A program made the position numbers and the translations under genes. A stretch of 64,000 nt of DNA from Mucilaginibacter arboris (lineage in GTDB: Bacteria; Bacteroidota; Bacteroidia; Sphingobacteriales; Sphingobacteriaceae). Positions within the stretch are counted from its first letter, which is position 1. Every line of letters begins with the position of its first letter. The stretch lies in contig NZ_WPIK01000009.1 in NCBI RefSeq assembly GCF_009754915.1, forward strand, positions 62,001-126,000, in the 5' to 3' direction. Positions 28,874-40,998 of this stretch are shown here, one piece after another. The notes below the pieces were generated by a model. It ran no database searches and was not told where the DNA came from. It worked only from the letters and a program-made list of their open reading frames with translations.

Positions 28874-30781
28874 ATGAACCTGCAAGTAAAATCTTTTGAA
28901 GAATACCAAGATGTTTATAATTATAGCTTAAGCGAACCGGAAAAATTCTGGGCAGAAATTGCTGAGAATTTTTTATGGCGAAAAAAATGGGACCAGGTCT
29001 TGGAGTGGAATTTTAAAGAACCCCAAATTAAATGGTTTTTAGGTGCCAAGCTTAATATTACCGAAAACTGTATCGACAGGCATTTGGATACTTTAGGTGA
29101 TAAACCTGCTATTATTTGGGAACCGAATGATCCGGAAGAAGATCACCGGATATTATCCTATAAACAATTGCACCAAAAGGTCTGCCAGTTTTCGCATGTA
29201 CTGCAAAATAACGGGGTTAAAAAAGGCGACCGTATTTGTATTTACATGCCCATGGTGCCCGAACTGGCTATTGCCGTTTTAGCTTGTGCCCGTGTTGGCG
29301 CTATTCATTCGGTTGTTTTTGGTGGATTTTCGGCACAATCTATTGCCGACCGGATTGTTGATGCAGAATGTTCTTTAGTAATTACATCAGATGGTGGTTT
29401 CCGCGGAAACAAAGAAACACCTATGAAATCTGTGATCGATGATGCACTGGTACAATGCAGATCGGTAAAAAAAGTAATAGTTTTAACCCGGAGCCGTACA
29501 CCGGTTTCTATGCTAAAAGGCCGCGATGTTTGGTGGGAAGATGAAGTGCGTAAAGTAGAAACCAATGGCTTAACAGATTTTCCGGCGGTAGAAATGGACG
29601 CAGAAGATATGTTGTTCATTCTCTACACTTCCGGCTCAACCGGAAAACCAAAAGGTGTAGTGCATACTTGCGGCGGCTACATGGTTTATACCGGTTATAC
29701 TTTTGCCAATGTTTTTCAGTACCAAACCGGCGAAGTGCATTTTTGTACGGCGGATATTGGCTGGATAACCGGCCATTCTTACATTGTTTACGGCCCGCTT
29801 TCTCAAGGTGCCACAGCACTAATGTTTGAAGGTATCCCAACATGGCCGGATGCTGGCCGGTTATGGAACATTGTACAGAAGTTTAAGGTCAACATTTTAT
29901 ATACTGCGCCAACTGCTATCCGCTCTTTAATGGGTTACGGTGATGGACCGGTGGCAGGAAAAGATTTGAGTTCGCTTACCAAATTAGGTTCTGTAGGCGA
30001 ACCGATAAACGAAGAAGCCTGGCATTGGTTTGACGACAAGATTGGCCATAATAAATGCCCTATTGTTGATACCTGGTGGCAAACAGAAAACGGCGGGCTA
30101 ATGATTTCTCCAATCGCAAACGTTACACCTACTAAACCTGGCTATGCAACTTTACCGCTTCCAGGCGTCCAGCCGGTTTTGGTTGATGAGAACGGAAAGG
30201 AAATTGAAGGAAATGGGGTAAGCGGAAACCTCTGCATCAAGTTTCCATGGCCTGGAATGCTGCGTACTACTTATGGCGACCATGAACGTTGCCGCACTAC
30301 TTATTTTGCCACTTACCAAAACATGTATTTTACCGGTGATGGCTGCCTGCGCGATGAAGATGGTTATTACCGGATCACTGGCAGGGTAGATGATGTGTTA
30401 AACGTTTCCGGGCACCGCATTGGTACGGCCGAAGTAGAAAATGCCATTAATATGCACTCGGATGTGGTAGAATCAGCCGTAGTGGGTTACCCGCATGATA
30501 TTAAAGGCCAGGGCGTTTATGCTTTTGTAGTTTGTCCGAATATGCATGGCAATGATAACCTCACCCGTAAAGATATTACCATGACTGTTTCCCGGATTAT
30601 CGGCCCGATTGCCAAACCTGATAAAATTCAGTTTGTAAGCGGACTGCCAAAAACGCGATCAGGCAAAATTATGCGCCGTATTTTAAGAAAAATAGCGGAA
30701 GGTGATACCGAAAATTTAGGCGATACTTCTACTTTGCTTGATCCTGCTGTTGTTGAAGAGATTAAGGCTGGAGCATTGTAG
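28874..30781 (+). CDS. acs: Acetyl-CoA synthetase
   Basis: 635 residues. AMP-forming ligase: P-loop-like LYTSGSTGKPKGVVHT about 255-270, ADIGWITGHSYIVYGPL, DTWWQTENGG and the GRVDDVLNVSGHRIGTAEVE hinge. The C-terminal KTRSGKIMRRILR contains the catalytic Lys that is normally acetylated for control. It makes acetyl-CoA from acetate, ATP and CoA. Preceded by the SatP-like transporter; followed by a terminator. Confidence 0.95.
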   Translation: MNLQVKSFEEYQDVYNYSLSEPEKFWAEIAENFLWRKKWDQVLEWNFKEPQIKWFLGAKLNITENCIDRHLDTLGDKPAIIWEPNDPEEDHRILSYKQLHQKVCQFSHVLQNNGVKKGDRICIYMPMVPELAIAVLACARVGAIHSVVFGGFSAQSIADRIVDAECSLVITSDGGFRGNKETPMKSVIDDALVQCRSVKKVIVLTRSRTPVSMLKGRDVWWEDEVRKVETNGLTDFPAVEMDAEDMLFILYTSGSTGKPKGVVHTCGGYMVYTGYTFANVFQYQTGEVHFCTADIGWITGHSYIVYGPLSQGATALMFEGIPTWPDAGRLWNIVQKFKVNILYTAPTAIRSLMGYGDGPVAGKDLSSLTKLGSVGEPINEEAWHWFDDKIGHNKCPIVDTWWQTENGGLMISPIANVTPTKPGYATLPLPGVQPVLVDENGKEIEGNGVSGNLCIKFPWPGMLRTTYGDHERCRTTYFATYQNMYFTGDGCLRDEDGYYRITGRVDDVLNVSGHRIGTAEVENAINMHSDVVESAVVGYPHDIKGQGVYAFVVCPNMHGNDNLTRKDITMTVSRIIGPIAKPDKIQFVSGLPKTRSGKIMRRILRKIAEGDTENLGDTSTLLDPAVVEEIKAGAL

Positions 30782-31508: not shown

Positions 31509-31640
31509 AGCATTAAAAGGTTTATAAAAATGAATGGGACAAAAAGGTTAAGCATAAAAACATGGCTTGCTTGGCCGCTCTGTTTCCATCGCCCTAATAC
31601 AATTGATTGCTAAAATTAATGATAAAGTTGTTTAAATATA

Positions 31641-31865
31641 GAAGTTGTTTAAACTTTCAAGGCCTGTTTAAGTTTGTACAGACCCTTCGGATATGCTTAG
31701 GATTGATGTGCCCGGGCTTGGTGCGCATGCTTCTTTTACGGGGTAAAAATTGGTATTTACATTTAATCACTAAAGACCTATAAGGTTTTGAAAACCTTAT
31801 AGGTCTTTAGTGATTTTTTAGCTGATAAAAGAAGCATCGGCCAGAAAAAAAGTTTAAACAACTTC
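31641..31865 (-). mobile_element. MITE-like element A (225 bp, no coding capacity)
   Basis: Bounded by a 17-bp perfect terminal inverted repeat GAAGTTGTTTAAACTTT. Inside, from left: a dispersed word at 31727-31752, a perfect palindrome with 25-base arms at 31765-31815, and an inverted dispersed word at 31814-31837. Its reverse complement aligns along its length with element B at 40789-40998, with best identity in the terminal repeat, the GGCCGATGCTTC region and the palindrome. No transposase is present, so it would need one in trans. No clear target-site duplication. Confidence 0.75.
31765..31815. repeat. Perfect 25-base-arm palindrome inside element A
   Basis: Arms AATCACTAAAGACCTATAAGG plus TTTT and the exact complement, around one central G. 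The same palindrome is in element B with central C, as expected for an inverted copy. Confidence 0.9.
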
Positions 31866-32008
31866 ATAATTACTAAAGCTTCTTTAAAAATTAAAACTCA
31901 GTTTTCATTTCTGCTGATGGAATGAATATGCCAGCATTTAATTAATCCGAAAAAGAAGTTTATCAGGTAGTATTAGTCTGGACTAATCATAATTCTGCCA
32001 GCGCAGAT

Positions 32009-40788: not shown

Positions 40789-40998
40789 GAAGTTGTTTAA
40801 ACTTTTTTTTCTGGCCGATGCTTCTTTTATCATCTAAAAAATCACTAAAGACCTATAAGGTTTTCAAAACCTTATAGGTCTTTAGTGATTAAATGTAAAC
40901 ACCAATTTTTATACAGTAAAAGAAGCATGGGCACGATCCTGAACATATCGAAGGGCCTTGTACCTATTTAAACGGAGCCTAAAAGTTTAAACAACTTC
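40789..40998 (+). mobile_element. MITE-like element B (210 bp, no coding capacity)
   Basis: Same 17-bp terminal repeat GAAGTTGTTTAAACTTT and its complement at the ends. Inside: a dispersed word at 40818-40842, the palindrome with 25-base arms at 40840-40890, and a dispersed word at 40901-40928. It matches the reverse complement of element A, so the two are inverted copies of one family. The 4-6-base spacers inside the words differ between the copies. Confidence 0.75.
40840..40890. repeat. Perfect 25-base-arm palindrome inside element B
   Basis: The same arms as in element A around a central C (A has G). ACCTATAAGGTTTT / AAAACCTTATAGGT is, from memory, a familiar palindrome type in Bacteroidota intergenic DNA. 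Confidence 0.9.

Follow-up and report, generated by a model that had tools for sequence, protein, structure and literature searches.

A probable IS5-type MITE of Mucilaginibacter arboris carrying pairs of a separate, genus-wide uptake-like word

The 225-bp segment at 31641-31865 of the window (the whole 64,000-nucleotide stretch of Mucilaginibacter arboris DNA that we analyzed) carries two copies of a 12-bp word dispersed over the genome, which raises the question of whether a mobile element spread the word or picked it up. A first-pass annotation had described an ORF-less segment with 17-bp inverted ends, two opposed words and a palindrome with 25-base arms, and direct reading confirmed this description. 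Perfect inverted ends, GAAGTTGTTTAAACTTT, flank the segment on the inside and enclose, in order, the word ATGCTTCTTTTA, the palindrome and the word in the opposite orientation (Table 1). No ORF of at least 90 amino acids was found between 31641 and 31865. The single-strand fold of the element is very stable (z = -9.2), as expected from its nested inverted repeats. At 31624-31640, a degenerate element end, AAAGTTGTTTAAATATA, abuts the left end of the element and is perhaps the remnant of another insertion.

Table 1 Positions of the features of the two element copies in the window.
Feature	Coordinates	Strand
Target-site duplication ATA, left, 3 bp	31638..31640	.
IS5-type MITE copy 1, 225 bp, no ORF	31641..31865	+
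Terminal inverted repeat, left, GAAGTTGTTTAAACTTT	31641..31657	+
Uptake-signal-like dispersed word ATGCTTCTTTTA, with an A/T tract after it	31727..31738	+
Central palindrome; perfect arms of 25 bases (31765-31789, 31791-31815) separated by one G	31765..31815	.
Second word, opposite orientation	31826..31837	-
Terminal inverted repeat, right	31849..31865	-
Target-site duplication ATA, right, 3 bp	31866..31868	.
IS5-type MITE copy 2, 210 bp, inverted; ACA/CTA flanks, no 3-bp duplication	40789..40998	-
Word in copy 2	40818..40829	+
Central palindrome in copy 2	40840..40890	.
Word in copy 2, opposite orientation	40917..40928	-

The source genome (G000) is a draft of 4.16 Mb in 83 contigs, of which 464 kb served as the sample for word, palindrome and ORF-context statistics. 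We compared it with two genomes of the same genus, a Mucilaginibacter MAG (G001; e.g. NZ_CALMAT010000174) and a second congener (G002; 1.01 Mb sampled for words and elements), and with Parapedobacter soli (G004; NZ_JAMXAY010000036). Genome-wide, exact 14-bp ends occurred 65 times (30 + 35) against 0 + 0 for a reversed control, and 63 + 62 times against 4 + 4 when one mismatch was allowed. Pairs of ends facing each other in sampled stretches of the M. arboris genome defined at least 41 elements, between 122 and 701 bp long and none with a transposase gene. These elements have the hallmarks of MITEs, being short, bounded by terminal inverted repeats, devoid of a transposase gene and present in many copies. 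Most of them clearly lie between genes, and in 35 of the 41 no ORF call overlapped the element; in five long copies a weak ORF-like call fell in the center, and in one copy at the edge.

Short elements (122-341 bp) contain one to three exact words each, in most copies paired and facing inward, and the central palindrome is present in 23 of the 41 elements. The long elements (type B; 13 copies, 517-701 bp) have a distinct center with CCACGGCC..GGCCGTGG and GGCTAAAGCC/GGCTTTAGCC stems. This center has GGCCTGTTTAAA-type ends (e.g. in the element at C6:126964-127664), similar to sequence adjoining IS5 remnants at C5:18795-19228 and C56:89109-89542, which suggests a second MITE nested within the MITE. 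At L098:2199-2855 (C10:25198 onward), a unit of left end plus word recurs five times in tandem, at steps of about 91 bp, and the element has two right ends. In G001, L091:1966-2172 has the same ends around one word plus an unrelated long stem, GACACACCCCTTGCCCC..., so that the ends are paired with several unrelated interiors.

The inverted sister copy that the first-pass annotation had placed at 40789 is real, with 138 nt at 93% complementary to copy 1, but another copy is closer: in the aligned part, C45:277623-277863 shares 94% identity with copy 1, compared with 84% for the copy at 40789. The latter combines a center of the short type with a right end like that of type B elements, which indicates that the elements are mosaic. 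Across the window, we counted 8 matches to GAAGTTGTTTAAAC with up to two mismatches, where 1.5 would be expected. One further end pair, 55167/56048, was considered as an element and set aside as probably due to chance.

Identical 3-bp repeats flank 28 of the 41 elements, compared with 3.85 expected from mispaired flanks, and the duplicated triplet is mostly ATT or AAT; the ATA/ATA repeat of copy 1 is among the 28. None of the other duplication lengths from 1 to 8 bp stands out in these 41 elements, and 13 copies, including the one at 40789, lack a clean 3-bp duplication. We also found two syntenic intergenic regions of G002 without the element, but the intergenic DNA is too diverged for the junctions to be read base by base. 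For the two window copies themselves no clean empty site could be read: the G001 contig stops within an acetyl-CoA synthetase-like gene, and the right-hand neighbors of the 40789 copy are absent from G001. The G002 orthologue of the window gene at 28874-30781, also acetyl-CoA synthetase-like, has an IS5 copy with an internal stop about 70 bp downstream (L109; G002:C6:45106-46036), near but not at the site of the window element, and beyond this copy the G002 sequence differs from the window. Insertion showed no clear preference for words: among 82 flanks, 6 word starts (up to two mismatches) lay within 15 bp of element ends, or 0.0049 per bp against an intergenic background of 0.0037.

Transposases with matching terminal repeats, which the first-pass annotation had proposed as a check, were found in all three relatives. 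In P. soli, the ends of the element enclose an IS5-family transposase within 924 bp, and in G001 they delimit a 933-bp IS5-family copy with an open transposase frame; in G002, the transposase of a copy with the same ends is broken by an internal stop. The transposase matches the profiles DUF4096, DDE_Tnp_1 and NF033580. Agreement with the 14-bp ends is 13 and 14 of 14 at L095/L101, 13 and 13 at L102 (G001), and 13 and 12 at L103. Across the Bacteroidota, ends resembling GAAGTTGTTTAAA also surround related transposases, among them those of Chryseobacterium, Saprospira, Capnocytophaga, Pontibacter and Dyadobacter, and several of these elements have 3-bp duplications. In the M. arboris genome, a search at a threshold of 1e-20 returned no cognate transposase, in an 83-contig assembly that could have lost repeated insertion sequences. 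The genome does hold fragments of IS5 elements and, at C3:132881-133735, a related IS5 element whose ends, GAAACTGTTTAAAT, differ from those of the MITE. Two overlapping frames in the latter possibly reflect frameshift expression; at L117 (C3:132563-133735) a MITE end adjoins this element, and the two together are flanked on either side by CTTACTTTTATATAAA. In this genome the family thus appears to be a transposase-orphan IS5-type MITE, although repeats can drop out of a draft assembly, and with no cognate transposase its present activity is doubtful.

The facing ends in many copies, the 3-bp duplications, the relatives' IS5-family transposons with matching ends and the two element-free syntenic sites bear out the earlier proposal of a non-autonomous element that moved as a unit. 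We put the probability at roughly 0.88 that the segment is an IS5-type MITE moved by an IS5-family transposase and bearing words of a separate, genus-wide uptake-like signal. An IS5-family DDE transposase encoded elsewhere would recognize the 14-17 bp ends and insert the element between genes, presumably by cut-and-paste, and in doing so duplicate a target of three mostly A/T bases. In M. arboris the family may now be stranded, or may rely on a transposase that has been lost or arrives from outside. The words in the element belong to the separate dispersed signal, set as inward-facing pairs around the central palindrome, and DNA with an element copy would likely be a favored substrate for natural transformation.

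We next consider the word itself. It occurs 1,947 times (982 + 965) in the M. arboris genome, 2,114 times (1055 + 1059) in one congener and 1,118 times (598 + 520) in G002, and in 0-9 copies in each of 57 other genomes of relatives. The window contains 30 exact copies, and no other 12-mer is as frequent as the word in the 464-kb M. arboris sample, where it occurs 200 times (0.43 per kb). A variant, ATACTGTTTTTA, with 332 copies, is likewise restricted to the genus. Past the core, conservation takes in the second base, a C, and an A/T-rich stretch spanning roughly bases 7-13, and then fades; such a tract recalls the Haemophilus uptake signal. Among the 200 sampled words, 87 fall within called genes, 17 on the edges of genes and 96 outside, in sequence of which 90% of bases are coding, so words are strongly enriched between genes, where closely spaced inverted pairs occur. 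Coding words were compared with confident orthologues (at least 54% identity) from part of the relatives' genomes, and 19 of 19 aligned sites had no gaps; the word was kept at 11 of 15 sites in congeners and at 0 of 4 in other genera. The word therefore shares copy number, presence on both strands and clade restriction with uptake sequences, and it is present in coding sequence by substitution rather than insertion.

Of the two origins that the first-pass annotation had offered for the word, acquisition by the element is favored over an inner module of the mobile family. If the word were such a module, the dispersed words would be remnants or minimal copies spread by transposition, and their concentration in the elements fits this: the 41 elements hold 96 exact words, mostly as inward-facing pairs, at a density of 6.4 per kb, compared with 0.43 for the genome sample. 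(Of the 96, 79 point inward from their own half; because the copies share ancestry, the 79 do not count as independent events.) The elements, however, account for only about 5% of the 1,947 words, leaving about 95% outside. Around dispersed words, conservation ends about 13 bases past the core, with no trace of terminal repeats or palindrome, and coding words align without gaps to orthologues in which the word is absent or substituted. None of the 282 words in 1.01 Mb of G002 lies within a terminal-repeat element, and three G002 elements (427-472 bp) have no words despite the 1,118 in that genome; G001 elements have one or two. Since words lie mostly outside elements, sit ungapped in genes and are absent from the G002 elements examined, spread by the element is highly improbable, and the MITE probably picked up its inward-facing word pairs. 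In density, strand symmetry, genus restriction and the shape of a core plus an A/T tract, the words resemble uptake signals, from which we infer a putative uptake function. The genome has comEC and dprA, genes that occur also in species not known for sequence-specific uptake. Chi-like recombination sites and chromosome-organizing sites also reach hundreds to thousands of copies, which would fit a signal of that kind. Intergenic enrichment, close inverted pairs and a 12-base core with an A/T tract nevertheless suit uptake signals best, and the two strands are nearly equal genome-wide (982 vs 965), as counted over the draft genome as a whole. We regard such another genome-wide signal as rather unlikely, and see an even chance that the word is the DNA uptake signal of this Sphingobacteriaceae genus and that the MITE rides on transformation as well as transposition.

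Two other readings concern the element rather than the word. The strong palindrome, the very stable fold, the varying position of the palindrome within the element and two Y1 transposase matches in the M. arboris genome would fit mobilization of a REP/BIME-type palindrome cluster by a RAYT (Y1) transposase, with the palindrome as the mobile core. Against this, IS5-type ends with 3-bp duplications bound the copies, and Y1 transposases are not known to produce such duplications. A search of the 464-kb M. arboris sample found no free-standing palindrome beyond the elements, and several copies without a palindrome keep intact ends. We rejected a REP/BIME origin on the duplications and the IS5-type ends, and consider the chance of it slight. 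The fold has also to be weighed together with the position of the elements between genes, which would suit copies kept for a role in the cell as terminators, attenuators or structured RNAs, with the inverted words acting as terminators; closely spaced pairs of Neisseria uptake sequences are known terminators (PMC2397512). The genes around the elements nevertheless show the same mix of orientations as the background, without over-representation of convergent pairs, and the 3-bp duplications and unrelated flanks show insertion. Retention for such a role is unlikely as the explanation of the elements, although termination could be compatible with mobility.

As an IS5-type MITE, the element is an ordinary kind of object, yet a new family. 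The significance of the analysis lies in telling the mobile element apart from the word, an independent genus-wide signal shaped like the uptake signals of Neisseria and Haemophilus. The literature that we searched described no uptake sequences in Mucilaginibacter, Flavobacteria or Bacteroidota at large, and our searches found no case of uptake signals inside MITEs. Within the Bacteroidota, Riemerella columbina prefers its own DNA; no convincing known motif was found there, and its authors' k-mer candidates were untested (PMC7965970). If the uptake reading is true, uptake signals would extend to a new phylum, so far as the searched literature shows, and a signal-loaded MITE would be a mobile element exploiting an uptake signal. 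Confirmation of such a signal would open sequence-specific uptake in Bacteroidota to direct testing.

Among known systems, the Bacteroidota IS5 insertion sequences of the NF033580 lineage have the same ends, GARGTTGTTTAAAC, as the window element, and some relatives show 3-bp duplications. These insertion sequences carry the gene for a DDE transposase of about 260-284 amino acids, whereas the window element is non-coding and has little in common with them beyond the ends. For the word, as distinct from the element, the nearest parallel is the uptake sequences of Neisseriaceae and Pasteurellaceae (PMC2397512, PMC3630211). Like them, the word occurs at about 0.5 per kb on both strands, with many genic copies and often close inverted intergenic pairs; unlike them, it belongs to another phylum, has another sequence and is a putative uptake signal. 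Closest to the element itself are the IS5-derived MITEs of Porphyromonas gingivalis, BrickBuilt and MITE464/PgRS, which also belong to the Bacteroidota and have ends matching IS5 and interiors unrelated to the parent insertion sequence (PMC4596501). They differ from the window element in their GAGACC... ends, in their irregular duplications and in having internal tandem repeats instead of dispersed words.
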